Source: Pseudomonas sp. WJP1 (lineage in GTDB: Bacteria; Pseudomonadota; Gammaproteobacteria; Pseudomonadales; Pseudomonadaceae). From it: a stretch of DNA of 64,000 nt. The stretch's first letter is position 1; every line of letters starts with the position of its first letter. The stretch lies in the NCBI RefSeq assembly GCF_028471945.1, contig NZ_CP110128.1:4390501-4454500 (forward strand). The letters run 5' to 3'. The translations under genes were made by a program, and so were the position numbers. Below, in pieces: positions 9,367 through 61,305 of the stretch. Under the pieces are notes generated by a model. It saw nothing but the letters and a program-made list of their open reading frames with translations. It did no database searches and was not told the origin of the DNA.

Positions 9367-10122
9367 CATATCCATTGCTGCGGTAACGGCCGCCTATGGT
9401 TTCGCCCTTACGGCGACTCCCTTTTTCAAACGCCAAAAAGGAAGCAAAAGGCTTTGCCCCACCACTCGGTGCCTCGCTGTGGCTCGGCATGCCCTCACTC
9501 CGGCATTGCTCCGTGGGTCGCCGCGATGGGCCGTCCCTGGCCCAGCGCGGCTAAACCGGCGTCCTGCCGGTTTCCCCACTGCGCAATGCCTGCGTTCGGC
9601 CAGCGTGGTTAACGGGGCACCCAGATCAAAAGCCAAAGCGAGGCGGCCTTATAGCCGACCTGACTTTTACAGATACCCCAATCCCCTGTAGGAGCCAGGC
9701 TTGCCGGCGAAGAACGATAACGCGGTACAACAGAGACACCGCAGCGCCTGGTTCGCCGGCAAGCCTGGCTCCTACAAGGGAAATGCGTACGGCTCCCGAT
9801 CAGGTCGGCTTAAGGCCGCCTCGCTTTGGCTTTTGCTCTGCTGTGGCTTTTGATTTTCTTGCCCCATCGAGAGGCCGAGTGGAGGTTCTGCGCAGTGGGT
9901 AAACCGGCATGGATGCCGGTTTAGCCGCGCTGGGCCAAGGATGGCCCATCGCGGCGGGCCCACGGAGCAGGACCGGAGCGAGGGCATGCCGAGCCTTAGC
10001 GAGGCACCGAACGCCAGGGGCAAGAGCCCTTGGTTACTTAGGGCCGGGCGACGTTCCGTTTTTCCAAGTGACTCGCTGTAAAAGCGAAACCATAAGTGGC
10101 CGTTACCGCAGGAATGGATATG
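9367..10122. repeat. Composite inverted-arm repeat, copy 1
   Basis: A long element of two related arms in inverted orientation around a REPIN. The outer ends mirror each other: ATATCCATTGCTGCGGTAAC at the left and, read inward from the right, ATATCCATTCCTGCGGTAAC. The left arm (9367-9687) is type alpha, with AACGCCAAAAAGGAAGC and CCACCACTCGGTGCC. The right arm (9777-10122) is type beta, with AAGAGCCCTTGGTTAC and GGCCCACGGAGCAGGAC. Each arm contains internal hairpins such as AAACCGGC...GCCGGTTT. The same architecture recurs at 35567-36309 and about 60566-61305. The arms hold open reading frames rich in Arg, Gly and Ala with no recognisable domain and no good ribosome site; I treat them as non-coding. 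Confidence 0.88.
9688..9776. repeat. REPIN, CCGGC-type, at the centre of composite copy 1
   Basis: Two inverted copies of GTAGGAGCCAGGCTTGCC face each other around a centre containing GATAACGCGGTACAAC. Nearly the same REPIN lies at the centre of the other two composite elements. Confidence 0.93.
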
Positions 10123-10171
10123 TACGCAAAAAAAAGGTACACCCAATCCAACACGCGAAACCCCAAACAAA

Positions 10172-10196
10172 AAACCCGGCTTTTTCGGCCGGGTTT
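10172..10196 (-). terminator. Rho-independent terminator of cstA-ybdD
   Basis: Stem AAACCCGGC (10172-10180) and GCCGGGTTT (10188-10196) with a seven-base loop. On the minus strand the stem is followed by TTTTTTGTTT, as expected for a terminator just after the ybdD stop codon. Confidence 0.9.
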
Positions 10197-10210
10197 CTTG
10201 ATTCATTCAT

Positions 10211-10408
10211 TCAACAACACTTCGGTCCGGCCTTGCTGCCGTAACGGGCCTCCTGGCGTTCGCGGAAGAACGCCTCGTAGTCCATCACCGGCTTGTCCGG
10301 GTGCTTGCTTTGCATGTGCTCGACGTAGTTGTCGTAGTCCGGCATCCCCACCATCAGGCGCGCGGCCTGACCGAGGTATTTGCCCAGGCGACTCAGGTCA
10401 TTGAACAT
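10211..10408 (-). CDS. ybdD: YbdD/YjiX-family small protein
   Basis: A 65-residue cytosolic protein of the YbdD/YjiX (DUF466) family: [21 protein letters not shown], then [11 protein letters not shown]...[22 protein letters not shown] and a C-terminal CC. The start at 10408 is the family start and overlaps the end of cstA by 11 bases, so the two are co-translated. In enterobacteria small proteins of this family are encoded with CstA/BtsT pyruvate transporters and are needed for their activity; the same pairing here supports that role. A terminator follows at 10172-10196. Confidence 0.93.
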
Positions 10409-12467
10409 GATCAGGCATCGGCAGCGCTTGGAACGGCGCTTCCTTGTCCGTGCGTTCCTTGGTGCCCCAGGCGGCGATACCGACCTTGAGCGCAAAGAAC
10501 AGGATGCTGAACACCACGAACAGGAACAGCGCAGTCAATGTGGCATTGGTGTAGGCATTGAAGATCACGTGCTGCATCTGGTCGATGCTCTTGGCCGGCG
10601 CCAGCACCTGACCGTTGGCCAGGGCGTCGCTGTATTTTTTCGCCAGGGCCAGGAAGCCGATCGCAGGGTTGGCGTCGAACAGCTTGATAAAGCCGGCGGT
10701 GGTGGTGCAGATCAGCAGCCATACCGCTGGCAGCAGAGTCACCCACACATACTGTTGACGCTTCATCTTGATCAGCACCACGGTGCCGAGCATCAGCGCG
10801 ATACCCGCCAGCATCTGGTTGGAGATGCCGAACAGCGGCCACAAGGTGTTGATGCCACCCAGCGGATCGATCACGCCCTGGTACAGCAGGTAACCCCACA
10901 TGGCCACACAACCGGCGGTGGCGATCAGGTTGGCGGTCCAGGATTCGGTGCGCTTGAGCGCTGGCACGAAGGAGCCGAGCAGGTCCTGCAGCATGAAACG
11001 CCCAGCACGGGTACCGGCGTCCACCGCGGTCAGGATGAACAACGCTTCGAACAGGATCGCGAAGTGGTACCAGAACGCCATGGTGTTTTCACCTGGCAGG
11101 ACGTGGTGCAGGATCTGCGCGATACCCACCGCTAGGGTCGGCGCACCGCCGGCACGGGCCAGGATGGTGGTTTCACCGATGTCCTTGGCCACTGCTTGCA
11201 GCGCCTCCGGAGTAATCGCAAAGCCCCAGCTGCTGACGGTCTGAGCAACCGAAACCGCATCGGAACCCACGATGGCCGCAGGGCTGTTCATGGCGAAGTA
11301 CACGCCCGGATCGATCACCGAGGCCGCGACCATGGCCATGATCGCCACGAACGATTCCATCAGCATGCCGCCGTAACCGATGTAACGGGCATGACCTTCG
11401 CTGGCCAGCAACTTCGGCGTAGTGCCGGAAGCGATCAGCGAGTGGAAACCCGATACCGCACCACAGGCAATGGTGATGAACAGGAACGGGAACATACCGC
11501 CCTTCCACACCGGTCCCGTGCCGTCGACGAACTGGGTCAGTGCCGGCATTCTCAGCTCGGGCATGGTCACCAGGATGCCGATCGCCAACGCGACGATGGT
11601 ACCGATTTTCAGGAAGGTGGAGAGGTAATCACGCGGTGCCAGGATCAGCCAAACCGGCAGGACGGCAGCCACGAAACCGTAGCCGATCAGCATCCAGGTG
11701 ATCTGGATACCGGTGAAGGTAAAGGCCTTGGCCCACACCGGGTCAGCAGCGATCTGCCCGCCCAGCCAGATCGAGCCCAGCAGCAGGAACACGCCGATGA
11801 TCGAGATTTCACCGATGCGGCCCGGACGGATGTAGCGCATGTAGATGCCCATGAACATCGCGATCGGGATGGTCGCCATGACCGTGAACATGCCCCACGG
11901 GCTTTCGGCCAGGGCCTTGACCACAATCAGCGCCAGCACCGCGAGGATGATGATCATGATCAGGAAGCAGCCGAACAGCGCGATGGTGCCGGGGATGCGG
12001 CCCATTTCTTCGCGGACCATGTCGCCCAGCGAACGACCATTGCGGCGGGTGGACATGAACAGGACCATGAAGTCCTGCACGGCACCGGCCAGCACCACCC
12101 CGGCAATCAGCCACAGCGTGCCGGGCAGGTAACCCATCTGCGCCGCCAGTACCGGGCCAACCAGCGGCCCCGCGCCGGCGATGGCCGCGAAGTGGTGACC
12201 GAAGAGTACGTGCTTGTTAGTCGGCACGAAGTCCAGGCCATCATTGTTGAGCACAGCGGGAGTGGCGCGATTGGGGTCCAGCTGCATCACTTTATTGGCG
12301 ATGAACAGGCTGTAGTAGCGGTACGCAACGAGGTAGATGGCGACGGCTGCGACGACGATCCACAGGGCGTTGATCGCTTCGCCGCGGCGCAGGGCCACGA
12401 CACTCAGCGCAATCGCTCCCAGGACAGCCACGGCAAACCAGGCGAGGTGTTTAGCCAGACGGGGCAT
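10398..12467 (-). CDS. cstA: Carbon starvation protein A, pyruvate/peptide-type transporter
   Basis: A 689-residue inner-membrane transporter of the CstA family with about 16-18 predicted membrane helices. Landmarks are the N-terminal [33 protein letters not shown] region, [42 protein letters not shown] and [25 protein letters not shown]. Homologues in enterobacteria import pyruvate and have been linked to peptide use under carbon starvation. It is followed by ybdD in an overlapping operon. The upstream region contains a striking repeat of CTACGTA units (12580-12614) and lies next to a Cache sensor kinase and a NarL-type regulator, which I infer control it. Confidence 0.95.
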
Positions 12468-12592
12468 AGAGGGTCTCCTGCCGACAGCTCGTGACTGCGG
12501 CGGTAATTTTTATAATTGTGTCCGCTGAGCGGAGCTGGCCCAATATCCGCGCATGCCGTCCACAAATAAATCCGCGTTACTACGTACGTGGC

Positions 12593-12614
12593 GTCTACGT
12601 AGTTCTACGTAGAC
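12593..12614. promoter_or_regulatory. CTACGTAG inverted repeat upstream of cstA
   Basis: GTCTACGTAG at 12593-12602 and CTACGTAGAC at 12605-12614 form a perfect ten-base inverted repeat with a two-base spacer. A third, partly matching unit (ACTACGTA) lies just to the left at about 12579-12586. The site is about 125 bases upstream of cstA and 150 bases upstream of the sensor kinase gene. Dimeric NarL/LuxR-type regulators bind such sites, and one is encoded at 14163. Confidence 0.65.
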
Positions 12615-12627
12615 ACCCCTATCCCCT

Positions 12628-12716
12628 GTAGGAGTGAGCCTGCTCGCGATAGCGGTGTGTCATTCAACATCGATTCGTCTGATACATCGCCATCGCGAGC
12701 AGGCTCGCTCCTACAG
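12628..12716. repeat. REPIN, CTCGC-type
   Basis: Inverted pair of the GTAGGAG(C/T)GAGCCTGCTCGCGAT repeat, ending about 50 bases before the sensor kinase start. Its position between the CTACGTAG site and the kinase gene suggests that the site serves cstA rather than the kinase. Confidence 0.9.
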
Positions 12717-12766
12717 GGCGTATCTTTGGCATATGATGCCGGCCCCCCGCGCGGGCAGGAGTAACC

Positions 12767-14134
12767 ATGCAGCTCAAACACAAGATCGTCGCGCTCGGCA
12801 TTTTGCCGCTGGTGTTGGCCATTGCCGTCATTTGCGCACTGGTGATTTCCCTCAATCGCCAACTGGGTGATCAACAGGCGCAGCTGATCGAAGACAGCAT
12901 CCTGATGAGCAAGCGCGCGGAACTGAAAAACTACGTCGAAATGGCGAAAAGCCTGATCGAGCCTCTGTACGACAACGGCCAGGGTGACGCACGCGCCCAG
13001 CAACAGGTGCTCGAAGAACTGCGCAAGCTCAGCTTTGGCATCAACGGCTATTTCTTCGTCTACGACCATGAAGGCCGCAGCCTGATGCACGCGCGCCAGT
13101 CGGAGCTGGTGGGCAAATACCTGTGGGACATGAAAGACCCGCACGGCCTGCCGGTGATCCAGGCGCTGCTCAAAAGCGCGCAATCGGGCGAAGGGTTTCA
13201 ACGCTACGCCTGGAACAAACCCTCCTCCGGCCAGGTGACCGACAAACTGGCCTACGTGGTAATGCTCGATCGCTGGGGCTGGATGCTTGGTACCGGCATC
13301 TACCTTGAGGATGTCGAGCGCGCCACCCAGCAAGCCCGTGCCGAAGTGGCCCAGGGCATCCGCAAGACCATGATGGCGATTGCCGTGGTGGCGCTGGTGG
13401 CGGTGCTGTTTGTCTTCGCCACCGGCATGACCCTCAATGTCAGCGAGCATCGCCTGGCGGACAAAAAGCTGCAGCGCCTGACCCAGCGTATCGTCAGCCT
13501 GCAGGAGGAAGAACGCTCGCGGGTGTCCCGTGAGTTGCACGACGGCATCAGCCAGGTGCTGGTCTCGATCAAGTTCCAGTTCGAACTGGCCAGCCACTTG
13601 CTGGAAAGCGGACAACACCACGACAAGGGCCTGGGCACGTTGAAAGATGCCACCGCGCGCCTCGGTGATGCCATTGGCGAGGTGCGCAGCCTCTCCCACG
13701 ACTTGCGCTCATCGTTGCTCGACACCCTCGGCCTGTCGGCGGCAATCGGTCAACTGGCGGCTGAGTTCGAACAGCGCAGCGGCCTTACCGTGACCTATGA
13801 CGACAATGAATTCGACTGCCAGCTGGTCGACGGCGCAGCGGTCTCGTTGTTTCGCATCGTCCAGGAAGGGCTGACCAATATCGAACGCCACGCCCAGGCC
13901 AGGCATGTCTCCATTACCCTGCGCGGCTGTGAACAGTCGGTGCGACTGACGGTGGTCGACGACGGTGTCGGTTTCAACGTCGCCCAGGTCGAACGTCGTC
14001 AACTCGGCATTGGCTTGCGTAATATTCGCGAACGCGTTGAACACTTTGGTGGCCGCTTCGAACTGATCTCGACACCCGGACGCTCCGAGCTGGATGTTCT
14101 ACTGCCGATGAAATTGCCCACCAGCAAACGCTGA
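12767..14134 (+). CDS. Sensor histidine kinase, single-Cache, NarX/DegS-like transmitter
   Basis: A 455-residue membrane kinase. Transmembrane helices at about 8-29 and 202-224 bracket a periplasmic single-Cache domain (NGYFFVYDHEGRSLMHAR, GKYLWDMKDPHG and the closing GWMLGTGIYLED). The HisKA_3 phospho-acceptor is His258 in RELHDGISQ and the ATPase domain has VDDGVGFN and GIGLRNIRERVEHFGG. Single-Cache domains of this kind commonly bind small carboxylates. The response regulator gene follows after 28 bases. With cstA-ybdD transcribed divergently next door, the simplest inference is a carboxylate-sensing system controlling CstA. The start at 12767 has the purine-rich sequence AGGAG nearby (12757-12761). 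Confidence 0.93.
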   Translation: MQLKHKIVALGILPLVLAIAVICALVISLNRQLGDQQAQLIEDSILMSKRAELKNYVEMAKSLIEPLYDNGQGDARAQQQVLEELRKLSFGINGYFFVYDHEGRSLMHARQSELVGKYLWDMKDPHGLPVIQALLKSAQSGEGFQRYAWNKPSSGQVTDKLAYVVMLDRWGWMLGTGIYLEDVERATQQARAEVAQGIRKTMMAIAVVALVAVLFVFATGMTLNVSEHRLADKKLQRLTQRIVSLQEEERSRVSRELHDGISQVLVSIKFQFELASHLLESGQHHDKGLGTLKDATARLGDAIGEVRSLSHDLRSSLLDTLGLSAAIGQLAAEFEQRSGLTVTYDDNEFDCQLVDGAAVSLFRIVQEGLTNIERHAQARHVSITLRGCEQSVRLTVVDDGVGFNVAQVERRQLGIGLRNIRERVEHFGGRFELISTPGRSELDVLLPMKLPTSKR

Positions 14135-14162
14135 TGCCCCAACAACAAGAGTGAAGCCTTCA

Positions 14163-14795
14163 ATGAACCTGCCCTCCCCGATCCGCGTCGCCCTGGTCGA
14201 CGATCACGCCCTGGTCCGCGACGGAATCAAGGCGCTGCTGTCGGTCATGGCCCCTCTGGAAGTGGTGGGCGAAGCCGAAAGTGGCGCCCAGGCAATCGAG
14301 ATGGTCGGACGCTGCCAGCCGGACCTGCTGCTGGTCGACATCAGCCTGCCGGACATGAACGGCCTGGAACTGACCCGCGTATTACGCAGCCAGTACCCGG
14401 CGCTCAAGGTGTTGGTGTTGAGCATGTACGATAACTATGAGTACGTGAGCGAGTCGCTGCGCTCGGGCGCCAGTGGCTATGTGCTGAAGAATGCCCCGTC
14501 ACGGGAAATCATCGCCGCCATCGAAGCCATCTCCAGCGGCGGGACCTTCTACAGCGCCGAAATCGCCCAGCGGCTGATCGCCGACAAAAACACCGACAAC
14601 GAGCTGACCCCCCGTGAAAGCCAGGTGCTGTCGAAGATGGCGCAAGGGCTGAACAACAAGGAAATGGCGCGGGAACTGGATATCAGCGTGCGCACGGTGG
14701 AGACACACCGCTTGAGCATTCGGCGCAAGCTCAACATCGACAAGCCGGCGGCGCTGGTCAAGTACGCGATCGATCACGGGCTGATTTCGCGCTAG
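14163..14795 (+). CDS. NarL/LuxR-family response regulator
   Basis: A 210-residue response regulator. The receiver domain has acidic residues DD at 13-14, phospho-acceptor Asp59 in LLVDISLPDMNG and the conserved lysine in YVLKNAPS. The C-terminal LuxR-type helix-turn-helix reads LTPRESQVLSKMAQGLNNKEMARELDIS...RTVETH. The ATG at 14163 is preferred because a purine-rich GAGTGAAG lies upstream; a GTG at 14151 is in frame. It forms an operon with the Cache kinase. Likely targets are cstA and perhaps the small repeat protein gene at 14920; this is inference from position. Confidence 0.93.
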   Translation: MNLPSPIRVALVDDHALVRDGIKALLSVMAPLEVVGEAESGAQAIEMVGRCQPDLLLVDISLPDMNGLELTRVLRSQYPALKVLVLSMYDNYEYVSESLRSGASGYVLKNAPSREIIAAIEAISSGGTFYSAEIAQRLIADKNTDNELTPRESQVLSKMAQGLNNKEMARELDISVRTVETHRLSIRRKLNIDKPAALVKYAIDHGLISR

Positions 14796-14919
14796 CGCGT
14801 GCTCCCATCCAACCATTGACTGCGTCAATAGTCACCATTAACTCAATGAAGTTCTCTTAAAAACTCCAGGGCGTAACATCAGCTCCATACCAACCAACAA
14901 CACCCCGGAGCATACGATC

Positions 14920-15243
14920 ATGAAACGCCAAACCCTCCTCAGCATCGCTTTCTCGGCTTTTGCAGTTAACGCTTTTGCCGCTACCTCTGTTCAGCCTGTC
15001 GTGGCTGAAGGTGGCTCGGATCGTCTGATTGAAAGCCGGGTGGCTGAAGGTGGTTCGGATCGTTTGATCGAGAATCGTGTGGCTGAAGGCGGTTCGGATC
15101 GCCTGATCGAAAATCGTGTGGCTGCCGATGGTTCCGATCGCCTGCAAGGCAACACCATTGCTGCCGATGGTTCCGATCGCCTGCAAGGCAAGACCATTGC
15201 TGCCGATGGTTCCGACCGCCTGCAAGGCAACACCGTCGCATGA
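14920..15243 (+). CDS. Small secreted protein with six 13-residue tandem repeats
   Basis: A 107-residue protein. Residues 1-20 are a Sec-type signal peptide (MKRQTLLSIAFSAFAVNAFA, cleavage likely after AFA). From residue 28 there are six perfect-register 13-residue units encoded at 15001-15234. The first three follow VAEGGSDRLIE(S/N)R and the last three (V/I)AADGSDRLQG(N/K)T. The mature protein therefore consists of little but repeats, with the constant core GSDRL. No enzymatic domain is possible. The start has a CGGAG sequence nine bases upstream. It has its own terminator and probably its own promoter. Function unknown. Confidence 0.88.
   Translation: MKRQTLLSIAFSAFAVNAFAATSVQPVVAEGGSDRLIESRVAEGGSDRLIENRVAEGGSDRLIENRVAADGSDRLQGNTIAADGSDRLQGKTIAADGSDRLQGNTVA
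15001..15234 (+). repeat. Six in-frame 39-bp tandem repeats
   Basis: Six units of 39 bases in two blocks of three, built around GGTTC(G/C)GATCG. The blocks differ at the third to fifth and last four codons. The last three units are almost identical at DNA level, which points to recent duplication. Confidence 0.93.
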
Positions 15244-15267
15244 CCCCCATCGCTGCACCGTACGAAC

Positions 15268-15298
15268 AAAAAGCCCGGCCTGATCAGCCGGGCTTTTT
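15268..15298 (+). terminator. Terminator of the repeat-protein gene
   Basis: Stem AAAAAGCCCGGC (15268-15279) and GCCGGGCTTTTT (15287-15298) with loop CTGATCA, followed by a further T. It begins 25 bases after the stop codon. Confidence 0.93.
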
Positions 15299-15508
15299 TA
15301 TGCCTGCTGCTTTTTGGAGGCCTATCGGAAAATCACCGCCAGAAAGCTTTTTTATTTCAATTTAATCGACAAACCTGTTAATTCTGACAGTTGTTCATTT
15401 CCCCACCCCCTTGTCTCATAGAGAGCAGTAGCACCATCCTGCCTTTGGCTTAACGAGTTGAGGATGCGAATGCAAACGTATTCGCCCACTACATCAAGGG
15501 AAAGTACA

Positions 15509-16900
15509 ATGACCACAGAACACATACACTCCTCTCCCCTATCAACTGAATATGATCCACTTTTTGGTGAAAACGGCTTTGCCTATCTTCATTCTCCATC
15601 CAACACTTACACGCAATTGTCATTACATGTTGTCTCTGTAGGCCCTGACAATAAGATTTACGTCGCGGGCTCGCTGAGTGATCCAGTCATCATCAGCAAA
15701 AGCCTCTACATGCTGGCATGCCTGAATGAAGACGGCTCTGTTGACACCAGTTTTGGTTACCAAGGTTTCTTCGGCGGTATTTTTTACGGATCAGATAGTT
15801 CAAAATTCATCGCCGAACAGATTGCCTTTGTGGATAACAGAATTCTGCTGACAGGAGAGCTCTTTCACTATGTAAACGGTGTTTTGCAGAAGGACAAGGC
15901 TGCCGTTCGTTTTCTTCTCGATGGCACCATTGATAAAACATTTGCCGTAGAAGGAAAATTCATTTTCCACGCTCCTGATACGAATGCTGATTTACGCGCT
16001 GTATCTAAGTACAACGAAAAATGTCTGGAAATCGCCAACTCCAGATGCGCTGCATCCAACTCTCCAAACGAGCTTACACCCTATGTGCTCGGAGCATCAC
16101 CAATACACGGCGACCACATCATATTGCTTCACGATTCAGGCAACTGGTTGTCAACTGATGCTTGGATCATCCGCCTGACCCAAAGTGGGGAGCTTGATGT
16201 TTCATTCAATGGCTCCGGATTTGTCCGTGTCCGGCATGACAGATTTACCCACATCAAACTGAAAAGCCTGACCGTTGACGATGCGGGCAACTACATCACT
16301 GCAGGCGAAGTCAAGTTGGATTTTTTGCATCACCCTGATGCCATTGTTCTCGTAAAACACAGACAAGATGGCAGACTGGATACCACCTTTCAGCAGAACG
16401 GTTCTCTGCTGATATACGATGAAGACCCACTCTATTATTGGGAACTTTTCGGTGCCGTAAAGCAACCCAACAATCGCATCCTGTGCACAGGCACAAGGCA
16501 TTCAAGACACGACACCTCTATTTCCGGGCTTTTAACCAGCAGGGAAGCAGACGGCTCAAAAAACATTCAATTCAACGGTGGGGATCCGGTATTCACGAAC
16601 ATAAATTCATCCAGCACAATTTGGTTCAACACCGACTTCCTGCCTGACGGAAGTTTTTTGAGTACCGGAATTATCGACATTGAAAATCGAGATAAAACTC
16701 ATTACGTGATCACGCGCTTTCTTTACAATGGCGTTCATGACAAGGACTATAATAATGGGGTTGGTTGGCTTGACTATAAGGAAGCGACAAGCGTTGGTTT
16801 TTATTCATCCGCCATCAAAAACAACAAGGTCGTTTTTACCGTAATCGTCAAAGAAGGCGAAGCACGCAATCGCTGCATAGCAAGAGGATTGATGCCCTGA
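15509..16900 (+). CDS. Delta-60 repeat (beta-propeller-like) protein
   Basis: A 463-residue protein with about seven copies of the delta-60 motif, a short pattern (I/L)DxxFxxxG that ends each roughly 60-residue blade. Examples are YDPLFGENGF, VDTSFGYQGF, IDKTFAVEGK, LDVSFNGSGF, LDTTFQQNGS and DKDYNNGVGW. No signal peptide or membrane helix is seen. The start at 15509 has an AAGGGAAAG ribosome site; the reading frame extends to 15458. Base composition is visibly richer in A and T than the neighbours, with many TTT, AAA and ATT codons, which suggests transfer from elsewhere. In related pseudomonads such proteins are accessory; a role in surface or secreted interactions is a guess. Terminator follows. 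Confidence 0.85.
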   Translation: MTTEHIHSSPLSTEYDPLFGENGFAYLHSPSNTYTQLSLHVVSVGPDNKIYVAGSLSDPVIISKSLYMLACLNEDGSVDTSFGYQGFFGGIFYGSDSSKFIAEQIAFVDNRILLTGELFHYVNGVLQKDKAAVRFLLDGTIDKTFAVEGKFIFHAPDTNADLRAVSKYNEKCLEIANSRCAASNSPNELTPYVLGASPIHGDHIILLHDSGNWLSTDAWIIRLTQSGELDVSFNGSGFVRVRHDRFTHIKLKSLTVDDAGNYITAGEVKLDFLHHPDAIVLVKHRQDGRLDTTFQQNGSLLIYDEDPLYYWELFGAVKQPNNRILCTGTRHSRHDTSISGLLTSREADGSKNIQFNGGDPVFTNINSSSTIWFNTDFLPDGSFLSTGIIDIENRDKTHYVITRFLYNGVHDKDYNNGVGWLDYKEATSVGFYSSAIKNNKVVFTVIVKEGEARNRCIARGLMP

Positions 16901-16906
16901 CCTGAC

Positions 16907-16942
16907 AAAAGCCCCGCCATGTAAATGGCGAGGCCTTTTTTT
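16907..16942 (+). terminator. Terminator between convergent genes
   Basis: Stem GCC-C-CGCCAT / ATGGCG-A-GGC with loop GTAA (16911-16934), preceded by AAAA and followed by seven to eight T residues. It serves the delta-60 repeat gene and may also terminate the convergent Mop-like gene. Confidence 0.9.
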
Positions 16943-16958
16943 ATTTCATACCCTGGGC

Positions 16959-17174
16959 TCACAGCTTGGCGATCGAGACTTCGGTAGATTTCACGAAGGC
17001 AATCACCTCGCTCCCCACCTTCAATTCAAGGTCACGCACCGAACGGGTGGTAATCACCGAGGTGACGATGCCCGACGCCGTTTGCACGTCGATTTCCGAG
17101 ACCACTTCGCCTTCCAGAATTTCCTTGATGACGCCCTTGAACTGGTTACGGACGTTGATCGCTTTGATGGTCAT
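16959..17174 (-). CDS. Mop/TOBE-type molybdate-binding protein
   Basis: A 71-residue single-domain molbindin: MTIKAINVRNQFKGVIKEILEGEVVSEIDVQTASGIVTSVITTRSV...LELKVGSEVIAFVKSTEVSIAKL. The pattern NQFKGxI, then G.V.SEV/ID, then TSVIT.RSV.DL.L..G..V.AF.K.TEV is the Mop signature. Such proteins assemble into hexamers and store or buffer molybdate (and sometimes tungstate) in the cytoplasm. The start at 17174 has an AGGAAG ribosome site; the frame extends upstream without similarity. The long AT-rich leader contains an inverted pair TTATCTATTT/AAATAGATAA. Confidence 0.92.
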   Translation of the reverse strand: MTIKAINVRNQFKGVIKEILEGEVVSEIDVQTASGIVTSVITTRSVRDLELKVGSEVIAFVKSTEVSIAKL

Positions 17175-17268
17175 GTTGAGGCTTCCTGTCTGGGTGTCTT
17201 GCCCTTGCGAATGAAGGGGCAGGCCTCCAAGGTGCACTGACTTTGATTACAACAAAAGGAATATATAA

Positions 17269-17364
17269 TTATCTATTTATATCTTTTTGGAATATCAAAT
17301 TCGCCTGACAAAATTCGGACGCGTCGCTTCTCAAAAGAACAAAAAGGAATTATCAAATAGATAA
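17269..17364. promoter_or_regulatory. AT-rich divergent promoter with distant inverted repeats
   Basis: TTATCTATTT at 17269-17278 and its reverse complement AAATAGATAA at 17355-17364 lie 76 bases apart, each preceded by a similar AAAAGGAAT stretch (17254-17262 and 17342-17350). They lie between the Mop-like gene and the small gene plus XRE regulator. They are good candidates for paired operator sites of the XRE regulator. Confidence 0.45.
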
Positions 17365-35566: not shown

Positions 35567-36309
35567 ATATCCATTCCTGCGGTAACGGCGACTTATGGTT
35601 TCGCCCTTACGGCGAGTCACTTGGAAAAGCCCCAAGTAACCAAGGGCTCTTGCCCCTGCCGTTCGGCCCCTCGCTAAGGCTCGGGGTACCCTCGCTCCGG
35701 TCCTGCTCCGTGGGCCCGCCGCGATGGGCCATCCTTGGCCCAGCGCGGCTAAACCGGCATCCATGCCGGTTTACCCACTGCGCAGAACCTCCACTCGGCC
35801 TCTCGATGGGGCAAGAAAATCAAAAGCCAAATCAAGATCGAACGCGAAAGCGAGGCGGCCTTAAAGCCGACCTGATCGGGAGCCATACGCGTTCCCACTG
35901 TAGGAGCCAGGCTTGCCGGCGAAGAACGATAACGCGGTACAACAGACACACCGCAGCGCCTGGTTCGCCGGCAAGCCTGGCTCCTACAGAGGATTGGGGG
36001 TATGTGCAAAAGTCAGGTCGGCTTTAAGGCCGCCTCGCTTTTGTTTTTGATCTGGGTGCCCCGTTAACCACGATGGCCGAACGCAGGCATTGCGCAGTGG
36101 GGAAACCGGCAGGACGCCGGTTTAGCCGCGCTGGGCCATGGATGGCCCATCGCGGCGACCCACGGAGCAATGCCGGAGTGAGGGCATGCCGAGCCTAGGC
36201 GAGGCACCGAGTGGTGGGGCAAAGCCTTTTGCTTACTTTTCGGCGTTTGGAAAAGTGAGTCGCTGTAAGAGCGAAACCATAAGTCGCCGTTACCGCAGCA
36301 ATGGATATC
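35567..36309. repeat. Composite inverted-arm repeat, copy 2 (opposite orientation)
   Basis: Same architecture as copy 1, but here the beta arm is on the left (35567-35899, with TCACTTGGAAAAGCC and CAAGGGCTCTTGCC) and the alpha arm on the right (35989-36309, with CACCGAGTGGTGGGG and GGCGTTTGG). The outer ends again read ATATCCATTCCTGCGG and, inward from the right, ATATCCATTGCTGCGG. Relative to copies 1 and 3 the whole element is inverted. It lies between the small acidic protein gene and the 3' end of the MHS transporter gene. Confidence 0.88.
35900..35988. repeat. REPIN, CCGGC-type, at the centre of composite copy 2
   Basis: Inverted GTAGGAGCCAGGCTTGCC pair with centre GAACGATAACGCGGTACAAC, nearly identical to the REPIN at the centre of copies 1 and 3. 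Confidence 0.93.
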
Positions 36310-36418
36310 CCCCCTATCCAGATCTGATATACAACCCAATGCTTAAGTGAACAGTATTGGGGAAGGAAGGTTCATCAGGCATCGCCCTTCCCCCTGCAGG
36401 AAAGGGCGAGCGCAGGCT

Positions 36419-55031: not shown

Positions 55032-55074
55032 GGTTCTGGTGTGCAGCAGAGGTTCCACGCCCTGCACAAATATC

Positions 55075-55160
55075 GTAGGAGCCAGGCTTGCCGGCGAAGA
55101 GGCCTGAAAGGTCAACGCAACATCCGAGGACGCCTTCGCCGGCAAGCCGGGCTCCTACAG
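55075..55160. repeat. REPIN, CCGGC-type
   Basis: Inverted pair GTAGGAGCCAGGCTTGCC / GGCAAGCCGGGCTCCTAC between the convergent TonB receptor and GntR genes; it may act as a transcript-end hairpin for both. Confidence 0.92.
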
Positions 55161-55189
55161 GTCAGCGGCGATGCCCGGCGCGCGCGGTG

Positions 55190-55975
55190 CTACGAGGTTC
55201 TCGCCCCCGGATTCTGCCAGAACGCGGGATCGGCACTCTTGAGCCGCTCGACCGCATTATTGATGTGGTTAAGGGCAGCATGGCGCGCGCCTTCAGGGTC
55301 ACGTGCGGCGATGGCTTCGTACACGGCGGAGTGTTCGACATGCACCGTCCTGGCCAGGTCATGGCGGCGTTCCTCGTTGGAGCGGGTGATGCGGATCGCT
55401 TCCTTGATGTACTGCGCGATGAACTCGTGCAGTGACGGGTACAGCGGATTGCCCGTTGCCCTGGAAATGGAGTGATGGAACGCCAGGTCTTCCTCGACGC
55501 CATCGCGCCCCGCCTGCTCGGCGGCATCGATGGCCTTGAGCGCCTGGTGGATGGCCTCCAGTTGCGCCGGCGAGTGCCGCTGCGCCGCCAGTGCCGCCGC
55601 CTCCCCTTCGATACCGCGGCGCAGTTCGGTGACCCGCAACACCGCCTCGATCGAGCCGCTGACATCCAGGTCGATGGTGAACGCCTTGATGTGCGCGCCT
55701 TCGCTGACGACGGTGCCGCTGCCTTGACGGACCTCGACCAAACCGGCTGATTTAAGGCGCGAGATTGCCTCGCGGATGACCGTCCTGCTCACCCCGAAAC
55801 GCTCCGAGAGCACGGGCTCGGTGGGCAGGCGCGCGCCCGGCAGCACTTCACCATTGGCGATGTAGGCCTTCAGGGCCGCCGTCACCTGATCGGACAACGT
55901 GCCCTTGGCGGAGTCCTTCAAAACGGCCAGCGCCTCGGCGGAACAGGGGGATTTGTCAGGAGTGGGCATAGGCAT
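55190..55975 (-). CDS. GntR-family (FadR/FCD) regulator
   Basis: A 261-residue regulator. Winged helix at about 25-95 (LPGARLPTEPVLSERFGVSRTVIREAISRLKSAGLVEVRQGSGTVV) and an all-helical FCD effector domain (ELRRGIEGEAAALAAQR, EEDLAFHHSISRATGNP, EHSAVYEAIAARDPEGARHAALNHI). The start is most likely the ATG at 55975; a TTG lies four codons upstream. It is divergent from the erythronate operon, and a 17-bp palindrome with GT-ATG-AC centre (56044-56060) lies between, so it is the likely repressor of that operon. Confidence 0.92.
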   Translation of the reverse strand: MPMPTPDKSPCSAEALAVLKDSAKGTLSDQVTAALKAYIANGEVLPGARLPTEPVLSERFGVSRTVIREAISRLKSAGLVEVRQGSGTVVSEGAHIKAFTIDLDVSGSIEAVLRVTELRRGIEGEAAALAAQRHSPAQLEAIHQALKAIDAAEQAGRDGVEEDLAFHHSISRATGNPLYPSLHEFIAQYIKEAIRITRSNEERRHDLARTVHVEHSAVYEAIAARDPEGARHAALNHINNAVERLKSADPAFWQNPGARTS

Positions 55976-56043
55976 CTCTGGGCTCAAATCGGTGAACGGT
56001 ACTGCATTTTAGACCCGTCGTCCTCTTTGGATTCTGCGCCTTG

Positions 56044-56060
56044 AATTCGTATGACGTATT
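56044..56060. promoter_or_regulatory. FCD-type GntR operator
   Basis: AATTCGT-ATG-ACGTATT, an inverted repeat with six of seven arm positions matching and the GT-N3-AC core characteristic of FadR-group regulators. It lies 69 bases from the GntR gene and 78 bases from the transporter gene start. Confidence 0.7.
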
Positions 56061-56137
56061 ATGATAAAAAACCGATCTTCATGTAAGTCCGATAAAAACA
56101 ACGTCACCCACTACAAAAATAAGGATGGGGGAAACAC

Positions 56138-57448
56138 ATGACTGAATCAGTGATTCAAACCGGTGCCATCGCGCCCGCCGATCGCTTCGAGGACCTTGCG
56201 TATCGCAAAGCCGCGTGGCGTATCCTGCCGTTGTTGCTGCTGTGCTACCTCGTCGCCTATCTGGATCGGGTGAACGTGGGTTTCGCCAAATTGCAGATGT
56301 CCGACGATCTGCAGTTTTCCGAAGCCGTCTACGGCCTTGGCGCAGGGATTTTCTTCATTGCCTACTTCCTCGTGGAAATTCCCAGCAACCTGATCCTGCA
56401 TCGCGTCGGTGCGCGGTTGTGGATCGCGCGCATCATGATCACCTGGGGCATCATCTCCTCGGCCATGGCGCTGGTCAGTACGCCGATGTCCTTCTACATC
56501 ATGCGTTTCCTGCTGGGCATCGCCGAAGCCGGGTTCTACCCGGGCGTCATCCTCTACCTGTCCTACTGGTTCCCGACCCATCGCCGCGGCAAGATGTACG
56601 CCCTGTTCGCCACGGCCGTGCCACTCTCGGGTCTGATCGGTGCGCCCCTGTCCGGCTGGATCATGAGCGCCTTCAACGGTGACCATGGGTTTGCCGGCTG
56701 GCAATGGCTGTTCTTTCTCGAAGGGCTGCCTTCGATCGCCGTCGGCATCCTGGTGATCTTCTGCCTCAGCGACCGCATCTCCAGTGCCGGCTGGCTCACC
56801 CGGGAAGAGAAAACCCTGCTGCAGACGCGCATCGACGCGGAATCCGCCGGCCACCAGAAACACAGCCTGAAAGAAGTGTTCCTGCAGCCGCGCATCTGGC
56901 TGCTGACGGCCATCTATTTCTGCATGATCGCCGGCTTCTATACCGTGGGCTTCTGGTTGCCGACGCTGATCCGCCAGGCCGGCGTCAGCGATGTGTTGCA
57001 GGTCGGCATGCTCACCGCCATCCCTTATGCCGCCGCCGCAATGACCATGATCCTGGTGTCGCGCAGCGCCGACCGGCTGCGCGAGCGTCGCTGGCACCTG
57101 GCACTGACCGCAGTGCTGGGCGGTATCGGGCTGTTCATCTCCGCCACCTGGAGCGACAACTTCACCATTTCGATGATCGGCCTGACCCTGGGCTCCATGG
57201 GCGCCATGAGCACCCTGCCGCTGTTCTGGAGCCTGCCAACGGCCTTCCTCGGCGGCACCGCCGCGGCAGCCGGCATCGCCCTGATCAACTCCTGGGGCAA
57301 CCTGGCGGGCTTCGTCTCGCCGTACCTGATGGGCTTCCTCAAGGACACCACCCACAGCACCACGATCGGCATGTATGTGATGGCGAGCGCGTTGTTCCTC
57401 GGCGCCCTGCTGGTCTTCAAAATTCCCGGAAAACTCGTCAACCGCTGA
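56138..57448 (+). CDS. MFS transporter, probable erythronate/tetronate uptake
   Basis: A 436-residue ACS-branch MFS permease. Typical segments: LCYLVAYLDRVNVGFAKLQM, FFIAYFLVEIPSNLILHRVGAR, GIAEAGFYPGVILYLSYWFPTHRRGKM and an SSRP-like tail of FYTVGFWLPTLIRQAGV. It heads the denD-otnK-otnC operon and so should import the four-carbon acid sugar. A long open frame runs antisense through it and the next two genes but lacks coding features. Confidence 0.93.
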   Translation: MTESVIQTGAIAPADRFEDLAYRKAAWRILPLLLLCYLVAYLDRVNVGFAKLQMSDDLQFSEAVYGLGAGIFFIAYFLVEIPSNLILHRVGARLWIARIMITWGIISSAMALVSTPMSFYIMRFLLGIAEAGFYPGVILYLSYWFPTHRRGKMYALFATAVPLSGLIGAPLSGWIMSAFNGDHGFAGWQWLFFLEGLPSIAVGILVIFCLSDRISSAGWLTREEKTLLQTRIDAESAGHQKHSLKEVFLQPRIWLLTAIYFCMIAGFYTVGFWLPTLIRQAGVSDVLQVGMLTAIPYAAAAMTMILVSRSADRLRERRWHLALTAVLGGIGLFISATWSDNFTISMIGLTLGSMGAMSTLPLFWSLPTAFLGGTAAAAGIALINSWGNLAGFVSPYLMGFLKDTTHSTTIGMYVMASALFLGALLVFKIPGKLVNR

Positions 57449-57463
57449 CGTTTGGAGCAACTC

Positions 57464-58438
57464 ATGAAAATTCTCGTGACCGGTGCAGCCGGCTTCCTTG
57501 GCCGCCGTCTGATCGAAGCCCTGCTGCTGCGCGGCTCGCTCACCGACCGTGCAGGCCAGTCCCAGCCCATCGGGCAAATCGTCGCCTTCGACATGGTCGC
57601 GCTCGAGGGCATCGATGATCCGCGGGTAACGGTGGTGTGTGGCGATATCGCCAACCCTGAAGTGCTGGACAGCCTGATCGACGCCAGCACCGACAGCATC
57701 TTCCACTTGGCCGCGGTGGTTTCCAGCCAGGCGGAGGCCGACTTCGAACTGGGCATGCGCATCAACTTCACCGCGACCCAGAACATGCTCGAACGCATTC
57801 GCCAGCTCGGCACCTGCCCGAAATGGGTGATGACCAGCTCCGTCGCGGTATTCGGTGGGCAACTGCCGGAACGCGTGCGTGATGATCAGGTGTGGGCACC
57901 GCAGAGTTCCTATGGCACGCAAAAGGCCATGAACGACCTGCTGCTCGCCGACTACAGCCGGCGCGGTTTTGTGGATGGTCGCAGCCTGCGCATGCCGACC
58001 ATCGTGGTGCGCCCGGGCAAACCCAACCTGGCCGCTTCCAGCTTTGCCAGCGGGATCATCCGCGAACCGCTCAACGGCCAGCCAAGCGTGTGCCCAGTGC
58101 CGCTCGATACGCGGCTCTGGCTGATGTCGCCAGCGCAGGCGATCGCCAACCTGATCCATGGTCATGAACTGGCCGGCGAGCAGATGACCGAGGGTCGGGT
58201 GATCAACATGCCAGGCCTGTCGATTACCGTCGAACAGATGATCGATGCCCTGCGCCAGGTCGCCGGTGAACACGTGGCCGCGCGGATCAGCCTGGAGCGC
58301 AATCCGGCGATCGAGCGCATCGTCGGTTCGTGGCCAGGGTCCTTTTGCGCCACCTACTCCCGGGACCTGGGATTCACCGCGGATGAGGATTTCCGCGCCG
58401 TGATCAAGCAGTACATGACTGATTATCTGCCCGGATGA
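57464..58438 (+). CDS. denD: D-erythronate dehydrogenase
   Basis: A 324-residue NAD-dependent epimerase/dehydratase-fold protein: KILVTGAAGFLGRRLIEALL at the N-terminus, DSIFHLAAVVSSQAEADFELGM, MTSSVAVFGG and the catalytic YGTQKAMNDLLL (Tyr and Lys). In characterised clusters DenD oxidises D-erythronate to 2-oxo-tetronate, and the neighbours otnK, otnC and otnI are exactly those that finish the route, which supports the assignment over a general epimerase. The ATG at 57464 has a TTTGGAG site. Confidence 0.9.
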   Translation: MKILVTGAAGFLGRRLIEALLLRGSLTDRAGQSQPIGQIVAFDMVALEGIDDPRVTVVCGDIANPEVLDSLIDASTDSIFHLAAVVSSQAEADFELGMRINFTATQNMLERIRQLGTCPKWVMTSSVAVFGGQLPERVRDDQVWAPQSSYGTQKAMNDLLLADYSRRGFVDGRSLRMPTIVVRPGKPNLAASSFASGIIREPLNGQPSVCPVPLDTRLWLMSPAQAIANLIHGHELAGEQMTEGRVINMPGLSITVEQMIDALRQVAGEHVAARISLERNPAIERIVGSWPGSFCATYSRDLGFTADEDFRAVIKQYMTDYLPG

Positions 58439-58448
58439 GGAGCCCGAC

Positions 58449-59741
58449 ATGTTGAATGCCCCTGCCCGCCCTCTGCTGGGCTGCATCGCTGACGATTTCA
58501 CCGGTGCCACCGACCTTGCCAACATGCTGGTGCGCGGCGGTATGCGCACCGTGCAAAGCATCGGCATACCCGGCGCCGAGGTTGCTGAACGACTCGATGC
58601 CGACGCGATCGTCATCGCCCTGAAGTCGCGGACCGTGCCGGCCGCCGACGCTGTGCAGGCCTCGCTCGAAGCGCTGCGCTGGTTGCGTGAGCGTGGCTGC
58701 GAACAGATTTTCTTCAAGTACTGCTCGACGTTCGACTCTACCGCTGCCGGCAACATCGGCCCGGTCAGCGAAGCGCTGTTGGACGCGCTGGACAGTGATT
58801 TCACCCTGGCGTGCCCCGCCTTCCCGGAAAACGGGCGCACGGTGTTTCGCGGGCATTTGTTCGTTCAGGACCAGTTGCTCAGCGAGTCGGGCATGCAGCA
58901 TCACCCGCTGACGCCGATGACCGACGCTAACCTGGTTCGGGTGTTGCAAGCGCAGAGCCAGGGCAAAGTCGGCCTGTTGCGCCATGACACGGTGTCCAAG
59001 GGCGTGGAGAGCATTCGCGCCCGCATGACGCAGCTTCGCGCCGAAGGTGTGCGCATGGCGATCGCCGATGCCGTGTCCGATGCCGACCTGCATCTGTTGG
59101 GCGAAGCCTGCGCCGGGCTTGCCCTGCTGACGGGTGGTTCGGGACTGGCGCTGGGCTTGCCGGAGAACTTCCGTCGGGCCGGTAAACTGCGCGAGCTGAA
59201 TGCAGCCGAGGTACCCGCAGTCGACGGCGGCGAAGTGGTGCTCGCGGGCAGCGCTTCGCAAGCCACCAACGGGCAAGTGGCGAGCTGGCTGCAGGCAGGT
59301 CGTCCGGCCTTTCGGATCGACCCGTTGGCCTTGGCTGCGGGAGCGCCGGTGATCGAACAGGCACTGGCCTTCGCCGCTGACTCGGCAGAAACGGTGCTGA
59401 TCTACGCCACCAGCTCCCCGGATGAGGTCAAGACCGTACAACGTGAACTGGGCACCGAGCGCGCGGGGAACATGGTTGAGCAGGCCATGGGCCGGATAGC
59501 CAGCGGGCTGCGCCAGGCCGGTGTGCGACGCTTTGTGGTCGCAGGCGGGGAAACCTCCGGAGCCGTGGTGCAAGCGCTGGGGATCCAGCTCTTGCAGATC
59601 GGTGCGCAAATTGATCCGGGCGTGCCCGCTTGTGTCAGCACACCTGGGGAACCACTGGCCCTGGCGCTCAAGTCCGGCAACTTCGGTGGCCCTGACTTTT
59701 TCTCCAAGGCGCTGAAACACCTGGCGGGAGTTCAAGCATGA
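58449..59741 (+). CDS. otnK: 3-oxo-tetronate kinase (DUF1537 family)
   Basis: A 430-residue four-carbon acid-sugar kinase. Substrate-binding N-terminal domain with GCIADDFTGATDLANMLV and KYCSTFDSTAAGNIGP; nucleotide-binding C-terminal domain with FVVAGGETSGAVVQALG and ALKSGNFGGPDFF. It phosphorylates 3-oxo-tetronate to the 4-phosphate. A GAGGAG ribosome site precedes the ATG. Its end overlaps the otnC start by four bases (ATGA). Confidence 0.94.
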   Translation: MLNAPARPLLGCIADDFTGATDLANMLVRGGMRTVQSIGIPGAEVAERLDADAIVIALKSRTVPAADAVQASLEALRWLRERGCEQIFFKYCSTFDSTAAGNIGPVSEALLDALDSDFTLACPAFPENGRTVFRGHLFVQDQLLSESGMQHHPLTPMTDANLVRVLQAQSQGKVGLLRHDTVSKGVESIRARMTQLRAEGVRMAIADAVSDADLHLLGEACAGLALLTGGSGLALGLPENFRRAGKLRELNAAEVPAVDGGEVVLAGSASQATNGQVASWLQAGRPAFRIDPLALAAGAPVIEQALAFAADSAETVLIYATSSPDEVKTVQRELGTERAGNMVEQAMGRIASGLRQAGVRRFVVAGGETSGAVVQALGIQLLQIGAQIDPGVPACVSTPGEPLALALKSGNFGGPDFFSKALKHLAGVQA

Positions 59742-60376
59742 GCAATGAAAATGCCCTGCGCGAAGAAATCTGTGACGTCGGCGGCCAGTTGTACAGCCGT
59801 GGCTACACGGTAGGCAGTGCCGGCAACATCAGCGCCCGGCTCGACGATGGCTGGCTGATCACGCCCACGGACGCGTGCCTGGGCCGCCTGGATCCGGCCG
59901 CCCTCTCCAAGGTCAACCTGGCAGGGGAATGGGTCAGCGGCGACAAACCGTCGAAGACCCTGGCCTTGCACCGAGAGGTCTATGACCGCAACCCGGGTGT
60001 CGGCGGCGTGGTGCACACCCACTCCACGCACCTGGTGGCGTTGACGCTGGCCGGGGTCTGGCAGCAGGATGACATCCTGCCGCCGCTGACGCCCTACCAG
60101 GTGATGAAGGTCGGGCACATCCCGTTGATCGCCTATGAGCGTCCCGGCTCGCCGAAGGTCGCCGAGCGGGTTGCGCAACTGGCCAACAGCGTGCGCGGGG
60201 TGATGCTCGAGCGCCTGGGTCCGGTGGTGTGGGAAAGCTCGGTGTCGAAGGCGAGTTATGCCCTGGAGGAGCTGGAAGAAACGGCACGCCTCTGGCTGAT
60301 GAGCAACCCCAAGCCGGCCCCGCTTGACCAGGCCGCACTGGATGAACTGCACGAGGTTTTTGGCGTGCAGTGGTAA
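59738..60376 (+). CDS. otnC: 3-oxo-tetronate 4-phosphate decarboxylase (class II aldolase family)
   Basis: A 212-residue class II aldolase/adducin-fold enzyme. Zinc-binding region GVVHTHSTHLVALTLAG, the loop GSAGNISARLDDGWLITPTDA and a C-terminal tail matching OtnC. It decarboxylates 3-oxo-tetronate 4-phosphate to dihydroxyacetone phosphate, feeding glycolysis. It is coupled to otnK by overlap. The gene otnI that normally follows directly is about 1 kb away behind repeats. Confidence 0.92.
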   Translation: MSNENALREEICDVGGQLYSRGYTVGSAGNISARLDDGWLITPTDACLGRLDPAALSKVNLAGEWVSGDKPSKTLALHREVYDRNPGVGGVVHTHSTHLVALTLAGVWQQDDILPPLTPYQVMKVGHIPLIAYERPGSPKVAERVAQLANSVRGVMLERLGPVVWESSVSKASYALEELEETARLWLMSNPKPAPLDQAALDELHEVFGVQW

Positions 60377-60403
60377 CCACCGGGCCTTACGCTAAATGCA
60401 TTT

Positions 60404-60501
60404 GTAGGAGCGAGCCTGCTCGCGATGGACGACAACGATAACGCTGGAAGCCTGACACCCTGCGGCGCTCTCAGGTTTTTCGCGAGCAGGCTCGCTCCTA
60501 C
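60404..60501. repeat. REPIN, CTCGC-type
   Basis: Inverted pair GTAGGAGCGAGCCTGCTCGCG / CGCGAGCAGGCTCGCTCCTAC, 27 bases after the otnC stop codon, inside the otn operon. Confidence 0.93.
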
Positions 60502-60539
60502 AAACAATGCTGTTCACTTAAGCTTGACGTTATATGTAT

Positions 60540-60561
60540 GGATTGGATTGGATTGGATTGG
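60540..60561. repeat. GGATT pentanucleotide microsatellite, 4.4 copies
   Basis: Uninterrupted GGATT repeats directly outside the left arm of composite copy 3. A single GGATT also lies outside the left arm of copy 2 (at about 35556), and a longer TTGTG array outside copy 1. Confidence 0.92.
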
Positions 60562-60565
60562 GAGC

Positions 60566-61305
60566 TTATCCGTTTCTTCGGTGATGGCGACTGGCGGTTT
60601 CGCCCTTACGGCGAGTCCCTTTTTCAAACGCCAAAAAGGAACCAAAAGGCTTTGCCCCACCACTCGGTGCCTCGCCAGGGCTCGGCATGCCCTCTCTCCG
60701 GCATTGCTCCGTGGGTCGCCGCGATGGGCCATCCCTGGCCCAGCGCGGCTAAACCGGCGTCCTGCCGGTTTCCCCACTGCGCAATGCCTGCGTTCGGCCA
60801 TCGTGGTTAACGGGGCGCCCCAGATCAAAAACAAAAGCGAGGCGGCCTTAAAGCCGACCTGACTTTTGCAGATACCCCCGATCCCTTGTAGGAGCCAGGC
60901 TTGCCGGCGAACCAGGCGCTGCGGTGTGTCTGTTGTACCGCGTTATCGTTCTTCGCCGGCAAGCCTGGCTCCTACAGGGGGAACGCGTACGGCTCCCGAT
61001 CAGGTCGGCTTTAAGGCCGCCTCGCTTTGCTTTTGATCTGCTTTGGCTTTTGATTTTCTTGCCCCATCGAGAGGCTTCGTTCCGGTTCTGCGCAGTGGGT
61101 AAACCGGCATGGATGCCGGTTTAGCCGCGCTGGGCCATGGATGGCCCATCGCGGCGACCCACGGAGCAGGACCGGAGCGAGGGCATGCCGAGCCCTAGCG
61201 AGGCACCGAACGTCAGGGGCAAGAGCCCTTGGTTACCTGGGGCTCTTCCAAGTGACTCGCTGTAAGAGCGAAACCATAGGTGGCCGTTACCGCAGGAATG
61301 GATAT
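60566..61305. repeat. Composite inverted-arm repeat, copy 3
   Basis: Same orientation as copy 1: alpha arm left (60566-60887) and beta arm right (60977-61305) around a CCGGC-type REPIN. The left outer end is diverged (TTATCCGTTTCTTCGGTGATGG) while the right end keeps TTACCGCAGGAATGGATAT. It lies between otnC and otnI, so it has been placed within a metabolic operon. Confidence 0.87.
60888..60976. repeat. REPIN, CCGGC-type, at the centre of composite copy 3
   Basis: Inverted GTAGGAGCCAGGCTTGCC pair. Its centre (GCGCTGCGGTGTGTCTGTTGTACCGCG) is the reverse complement of the centre in copies 1 and 2, so the REPIN is inverted relative to the arms when compared with copy 1. Confidence 0.9.

Follow-up and report, generated by a model that had tools for sequence, protein, structure and literature searches.

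A dispersed, REPIN-centred repeat of Pseudomonas carries two outward-facing RNA motifs of the TwoAYGGAY type

A long composite repeat without a transposase occurs three times within 52 kb of the Pseudomonas sp. WJP1 genome, which raises the question of what kind of element it is and whether its hairpins are read as DNA or as RNA. The stretch analyzed (hereafter the window) comprises 64,000 nucleotides of contig NZ_CP110128.1 (positions 4,390,501 to 4,454,500), and the whole genome is a single contig of 7,004,124 bases. Each unit consists of an alpha arm and a beta arm in inverted orientation around a REPIN, i.e., two inverted repetitive extragenic palindromic (REP) sequences. As shown in Table 1, copies 1 and 3 were arranged alpha-REPIN-beta and the entire unit was inverted in copy 2; the arms of copy 1 measured 314 and 341 bp, with a G+C content of 61.5 and 60.7%. 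Counterpart stretches of different copies gave ungapped matches of 165-312 nt with 88-97% identity, far above chance, so that an earlier note on this DNA is right about the coordinates, the relatedness of the arms, the inverted copy 2 and the REPIN at the centre. Measured against the unit that holds it, the REPIN is turned the opposite way in copies 2 and 3 from copy 1 (loci L086-L088); centre and arms therefore vary independently of each other. The composite repeat is mobile or formerly mobile and is built on a conserved RNA motif; its parts are of known kinds, and their combination was not met in the literature searched. We favour, with moderate confidence, a dispersed transposase-less element of the miniature inverted-repeat transposable element (MITE) kind, whose cargo would be two CsrA/Rsm-type RNA motifs pointing outward from a REPIN slot.

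The conserved hairpins that the earlier note had seen in each arm were found to be the two hairpins of the Rfam family RF01731 (TwoAYGGAY). In the Rfam search, four of the six window arms scored above the gathering score, and further loci of the WJP1 genome were also matched. Most of these matches spanned positions 45-113 of the 168-position model only; one of the four window matches spanned the whole model including the outer stem, as did many in other species. A further model, R1, was built from 14 arm cores (an arm core being the TwoAYGGAY-type two-hairpin RNA stretch within an alpha or beta arm) taken from this genome and others; two were window cores, and the MAFFT alignment used no structural information. 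R1 detected a core in all six window arms, two of which belong to its training set, and 85 cores in the window and 52 loci of other genomes. Among 46 distinct rows of the latter set, compensatory (double) changes were present in 14 of the 23 base pairs, which is what the earlier note had proposed to look for and supports its guess of a structured RNA. The paired cells amounted to 97.7% compared to 83.8% after shuffling, the covariation score was 0.324 compared to 0.080, none of 500 shuffles reached any of five covariation measures, and pairing dropped to 25.5-49.1% in sliding controls of 1-3 columns; these figures lean upward since the alignment was fitted to the structure and the rows are related. 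The same double changes were visible in the unfitted alignment A1.

In the WJP1 genome, all 119 first loops contained GGA; of the 119 second loops, 118 had it, and the remaining one lies in a disrupted arm. The second-loop base preceding GGA was T in 43 cores, A in 37 and G in 37. Across species, the GGA columns held one exception among 270 cells (45 near-complete distinct rows), and the A preceding the N of A-N-GGA was also invariant. The N column itself varied in 37% of rows in the first loop (35 rows with a letter) and in 13% in the second, compared to means of 13% for paired columns and 19% for the seven other unpaired columns. Since the loop variants AAGGAU, AGGGAU, and AGGAC occur, the AYGGAY loop is preserved in its GGA core and not letter for letter. 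A near-invariant GGA beside a free neighbouring base is, at the sequence level, as expected of CsrA/Rsm sites, and GGA in hairpin loops, ideally as A-N-GGA, is what such RNAs display; here, the N is missing in 66 of the 119 first loops. For the 158-nt beta arm of copy 3, the predicted fold had an energy of -91.3 kcal/mol (z -5.98) and exposed both GGA loops. Three CsrA-family genes are present in the genome. The search output gave the clan number CL00106, which we take to be the grouping of CsrA-binding RNAs. The conserved arm motif is probably Rsm-binding; this catalogued RNA motif and its CsrA/Rsm-type loops had been missed by the earlier note. In the available text of the respective papers, TwoAYGGAY is listed for human gut, gamma-Proteobacteria and Clostridiales (PMC2864571), is proposed as CsrA-binding from motif matches (PMC4333381), and the CsrA/RsmA consensus is given as RUACARGGAUGU in short hairpin loops (PMC7937890).

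The core is spread across the genus. RF01731 matches were found in 47 of 79 genus genomes (42 above the cut-off) and in none of 14 control genomes. With R1, the genus had 199 positives among 297 genomes, WJP1 included, at E <= 1e-6 (at most the best 17 candidates per genome); elsewhere in the class, two among 228 genomes were positive at E <= 1e-5. In the cross-species set, which includes the three window units, 20 of 27 neighbouring core pairs diverged, five were in tandem and two converged. The convergent, inward-facing cores (L211 in genome G070, L212 in G085) belong to a distinct sequence subfamily. One of the two positive genomes from elsewhere in the class, G564, lies outside the family and carries a related double AUGGAU hairpin in two nearly identical intergenic stretches (L254 and L256), which may be a separate repeat that has the RNA motif in common. 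Among the phage and plasmid collections searched, one record each gave partial arm matches (Pseudomonas phage MT121968.1, 5279-5479; P. antarctica plasmid NZ_CP015601.1, 58031-58541), and a C4 antisense RNA of the phage immunity type lay at most 1.5 kb from arm cores in L018, L206, and L213.

The three copies counted in the earlier note do exist, but they are not the only ones. The terminal motif gave 148 genomic matches at <=3 mismatches and none with the reversed-pattern control, and the family occupied at least 78 places of the 7.0-Mb genome. These places were clustered from the best 40 alpha candidates, the best 40 beta candidates and 100 of the 148 termini, and their number is a lower bound because 40 candidates each were scored for alpha and beta. 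Within them, R1 detected 119 cores. A single common layout was observed, with frequent internal deletions and with the REPIN in either orientation. In all of the 46 units retaining both cores, the arms diverged, with the GGA strands outward. By similarity, 38 of these 46 centres belonged to the REPIN class of the window, and the remaining eight were judged by eye to be another palindrome; two inverted REPs as a centre characterize the unit centre only. Of 12 divergent centres inspected by eye in other genomes, eight were REP-type palindromes, three were single REPs and one had none. A protein-coding unit was ruled out, since eight open reading frames across the units gave no Pfam match above the cut-off; no transposase was found inside.

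Versions of about 2.15 kb were considered as autonomous parents and rejected, because they are units with a 1438-bp insert of the IS110 family at one exact site. The insert occurs in nine WJP1 loci (L039, L053, L057, L072, L073, L078, L090, L092, and L100) and is secondary to the unit. Nine full-length copies and one partial copy, 98-100% identical, sit at the same position in the terminal hairpin, and the orientation relative to the unit end was identical in the four junctions inspected. The IS110-family element is an RNA-guided insertion sequence (IS) that targets this terminal hairpin repeat.

Evidence for mobility of the unit came from its outer ends. In the WJP1 genome, 13 of 147 termini, in 12 loci, reached an outer repeat near AATGCTGTTCACTTAAG; most termini carried other tails, some ending in REPs, and the inner end GGATAT(G)TAC was constant regardless of the tail. 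The outer repeat with its flank occurred nine times, in each case adjoining a unit, which fits, as far as tested, the description of the repeat as lacking a transposase in its own genome. The window copies carried degenerate traces only, as single outer-repeat remnants at copies 2 and 3. The 23-mer of the outer repeat (<=2 mismatches) was present in 26 of 249 genus genomes, WJP1 included. In other genomes, the same repeat bounds elements of about 1.42 kb encoding an IS4 transposase, and it also bounds eight transposase-less elements of 573-937 bp with one or two R1 cores each (L268, L294, and L298 in G059; L270 and L295 in G052; L271 and L296 in G148; L288 in G191). Four of the eight had exact target duplications of 9-10 bp, three had duplications of 10-12 bp with 1-2 differences, and one had none. 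As judged by eye, seven were inserted in terminator-type palindromes (e.g., AAGCCC...GGGCTTTTTTT) and L270 was inserted in a REP. Genome G059 holds a full-length IS (L299) alongside its arm-bearing elements. These arm-bearing elements of four other genomes, whose terminal repeats are common to an autonomous IS as those of MITEs are, are non-autonomous mobile elements. The mobile element suspected in the earlier note is thus supported by terminal repeats, target duplications and an autonomous IS4 partner, all of which were found in other genomes.

The IS4 element itself had 34 bounded copies in named genomes (12 from one Xanthomonas genome, several internally deleted), of which 20 carried exact 9-12 bp duplications, two carried duplications with one difference, three ran off a contig end, and nine were without duplication. 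Nearly all bounded copies of this ISPpu8-like IS4 (L317-L365, L273-L313) lay, by eye, in terminator-type hairpins, and its hosts include Pseudomonas and Xanthomonas as well as Azotobacter-like and marine genera. A 530-bp one-core element in G044 (L202) has the variant repeat CCAATGCCGTTCAGTTAAG and an 8-bp duplication within a palindrome; its ends are a second IS4-like end type.

The orthologous sites in relatives were compared with those of WJP1. At the copy 3 site, the unit was rearranged in the nearest relative, G286, and absent from G287, G343, G256, G204, G050, and G403, in which the genes are about 35-55 bases apart; the empty sites sought by the earlier note were thus found for copy 3 in six of the seven nearest relatives compared. 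G050 had no R1 match whatsoever, indicating that the copy number changes fast. In the rearranged unit of G286 (L140), the centre is lost, one arm core spans the joint, and an extra terminal piece is present, which looks like an exchange between inverted arms. With 44 terminus pairs and 22 sites queried in G286, 19 orthologous loci were found (for L049, L070, and L087, the last being copy 2, the comparison covers one side only), and no clean empty site with a duplication was among the 19. The unit was missing in G286 at L065, L077, L080, and L107, and L033 kept a terminal scrap; other repeats occupy these five sites and no duplication was readable there.

The absence of a clean empty site with a duplication among these loci speaks for an alternative in which the arms are RNA motifs that spread mainly by recombination and REPIN/REP traffic, the IS4 ends having been acquired in a few lineages. 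Bacterial interspersed mosaic elements are an example of such mosaic growth. The several different tails on the same core and the few foreign loci near an IS4-type repeat point in the same direction; however, recombination does not account easily for the eight arm-bearing elements with IS4 repeats, seven of them with duplications, nor for an inner end that is constant whatever the tail. We consider this explanation somewhat unlikely.

REP hairpins are recognized as single-stranded DNA structures, and the unit could accordingly be selfish DNA only, its hairpins being read by a transposase or recombinase and RNA being irrelevant. Compensatory changes alone cannot separate DNA from RNA hairpins. 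Since the IS110-family element takes one terminal hairpin as its exact target in nine loci, the hairpins of the unit can be read as DNA; the REPIN centre, the REP-type tails, and the lack of an internal promoter in copy 1 agree with this possibility. Nevertheless, the loops combine a fixed GGA with a free adjacent base as CsrA/Rsm RNA sites do, the core itself matches a curated RNA family, and CsrA-family genes are present three times in this genome; we therefore regard a purely selfish DNA as unlikely. A nucleoid or supercoiling element, in line with the gyrase-type binding once proposed for REPs and with RNA likeness as a by-product of palindromes, would suit the long palindromes and the REPIN centre but predicts neither GGA loops, outward strand polarity nor terminator insertion, and is highly improbable.

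Several observations weigh against the MITE-like element with an Rsm-type cargo that we favour. The fixed arm order described in the earlier note held in the 46 two-core units, but 26 additional loci of the genome retain one core only. The first loop is the five-base AGGAC in the 66 cores mentioned above, in which GGA is kept and the A-N-GGA spacing is lost. No promoter-like site was found in copy 1. Target duplications were found for seven of the eight elements in other genomes but for none of the WJP1 copies, the window copies included. Among 43 foreign loci with enough flank, an IS4-type repeat lay beside three (two of them with it on both sides), and the shuffled control gave two chance matches. 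An unbiased scan for terminal repeats plus duplications returned three of 120 units, compared to 1.2 or 1.65 expected by chance, and one of the three (L092) was due to flanking IS110 copies. No arm core was detected by R1 near the IS4 copies examined. Because of these low counts in the two surveys and because most termini carry other tails, the IS4 route is shown for some lineages; for the window copies it is only plausible.

The genomic setting was examined with a rough gene caller. The genes on either side of the unit were tail-to-tail in 36 of 78 places; among background pairs of adjacent genes, the figure was 30 of 225 (odds ratio 5.6, p 1.4e-8). Head-to-head genes flanked the unit in 5 of 78 places compared to 49 of 225 pairs, and in 73 of 78 places, at least one neighbouring gene reads toward the unit. 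The caller was wrong in at least one known place (L088, copy 3, which actually lies between two + strand genes), and these counts are therefore approximate. Given the layout, read-through from either side first copies the nearer arm as antisense RNA and then the farther one in its GGA sense; since the arms diverge, one GGA-sense arm results whichever side is transcribed. This outward symmetry may be used in the cell.

For the favoured MITE-like element, we propose the following sequence of events. At least some members of the family would have been mobilized in trans by an ISPpu8-like IS4 transposase. Lying past gene ends and, while newly inserted, interrupting a terminator, the element would be transcribed by read-through, which from either side would yield the near arm as antisense RNA and the far arm with its GGA loops. 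The GGA-sense arm RNA may then bind RsmA, RsmE, or RsmI, so that the adjacent transcript would carry an Rsm site at its 3' end; the roughly 120 cores in sum could act as a diffuse Rsm sponge. A wider proposal, which we put forward only tentatively from the sequence evidence, is that a genus-wide mobile family disperses Rsm-binding RNA, wires its neighbours into the Gac/Rsm network and titrates that network; insertion into terminator hairpins would open read-through into the element, and the outward arms would give a transcript from either side an Rsm-binding 3' region. According to the accessible portion of one study on P. putida KT2440, intergenic RNA associated with ISPpu8 was recovered in the pull-downs of all three proteins, RsmA, RsmE, and RsmI; it comes from regions that adjoin ISPpu8 copies or share identity with ISPpu8 flanks, one of them listed as a long palindromic region, and the authors left the meaning of this finding open (PMC7937890). 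This pull-down is an unverified lead for Rsm binding of the arms.

Table 1. Parts of the three repeat copies in the window (positions counted from the first letter of the window)
Feature	Position	Strand	Basis or remark
Copy 1 alpha arm	9367..9680	-	GGA sense on - strand; sequence comparison
Copy 1 alpha TwoAYGGAY-type RNA core	9514..9577	-	Model R1, 71.7 bits; under Rfam gathering score
Copy 1 central REPIN	9683..9781	+	Sequence comparison
Copy 1 beta arm	9782..10122	+	Sequence comparison
Copy 1 beta TwoAYGGAY RNA core	9897..9961	+	RF01731, 54.9 bits; model R1
Copy 2 beta arm (unit inverted)	35567..35894	-	Sequence comparison
Copy 2 beta TwoAYGGAY RNA core	35712..35776	-	RF01731, 54.9 bits; model R1
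Copy 2 central REPIN	35895..35993	+	Sequence comparison
Copy 2 alpha arm	35997..36308	+	Sequence comparison
Copy 2 alpha TwoAYGGAY RNA core	36099..36162	+	RF01731, 44.2 bits; model R1
Copy 2 outer terminal repeat remnant AATACTGTTCACTTAAG	36342..36358	-	Chance expectation 0.07 per window
Copy 3 outer terminal repeat AATGCTGTTCACTTAAG	60506..60522	+	
Copy 3 alpha arm	60567..60878	-	GGA sense on - strand; sequence comparison
Copy 3 alpha TwoAYGGAY-type RNA core	60712..60775	-	Model R1, 75.1 bits; under Rfam gathering score
Copy 3 central REPIN, inverted	60882..60980	-	Sequence comparison
Copy 3 beta arm	60981..61305	+	Sequence comparison
Copy 3 beta TwoAYGGAY RNA core	61097..61160	+	RF01731, 53.4 bits; model R1; full-length Rfam match 61069-61188

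Just outside two of the units, runs of five-base repeats (GTTGT-type and GGATT-type) were observed at 9305-9358 and 60540-60562 of the window. At copy 3, four GGATT units were present in the window compared to two in G286.

The repeat was further compared with known systems. It shares with TwoAYGGAY RF01731 a closing stem that encloses a pair of hairpins with A-N-GGA loops, but here the motif is one arm of a high-copy repeat and is paired divergently around a REPIN. The CsrB/RsmX/RsmY/RsmZ sponges likewise present several GGA hairpin loops per molecule, whereas here about 120 cores are dispersed on a mobile-type repeat for which no promoter of its own was found in copy 1. MITEs are also short, without a transposase, with IS-shared terminal repeats and target duplications (here in other species); what differs is the two conserved RNA motifs in fixed outward orientation with a REPIN inside, at 570-940 bp. 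QMITE1 and QMITE2 of Coxiella are MITEs reported, in the text available, to give small RNAs (PMC10969869). ISPpu8 is described in the part of the source at hand as an IS4-family element of 1419 bp with 18-bp inverted repeats and 11-bp direct repeats, with six copies in KT2440, and this part of the description does not mention terminator targeting (PMC3056050). The partner IS, not the window repeats, conforms to this type; it agrees in family, length (about 1420 bp), and the lengths of terminal repeat and duplication, and is likened to ISPpu8 by these features only. Among the large repeats of P. fluorescens, R200 (320 bp, 47 copies in SBW25 and 8 in Pf-5, 60.25% G+C) and R26 (352 bp, 20 copies in Pf0-1, 60.76% G+C) resemble the arms in size, G+C, tens of copies, and tail-to-tail bias, a comparison by description and not by sequence, whereas a two-arm unit and an RNA motif are absent from the accessible description (PMC2718517). 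The unit centre is a REPIN-type palindrome in the sense of the excerpted REPIN report (PMC3116915), but here the REPIN is an exchangeable insert, of the window class or of another palindrome, and not the unit itself. In the literature searched, mostly without subscription papers, no paper was found that connects TwoAYGGAY to a repeat of Pseudomonas, nor one that connects ISPpu8/IS4 to the targeting of terminators.

The present findings join three things that were recorded separately, namely a candidate RNA, the large repeats of Pseudomonas, and an insertion sequence with terminators as its targets. Should the proposal be true, Rsm titration in Pseudomonas would extend past RsmX/Y/Z to about a hundred dispersed sites, and the number of Rsm sites would change fast between species. 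Unique-mapping rules would tend to hide such sites in RNA-seq and pull-down data. The repeat gives TwoAYGGAY a concrete, testable biology.

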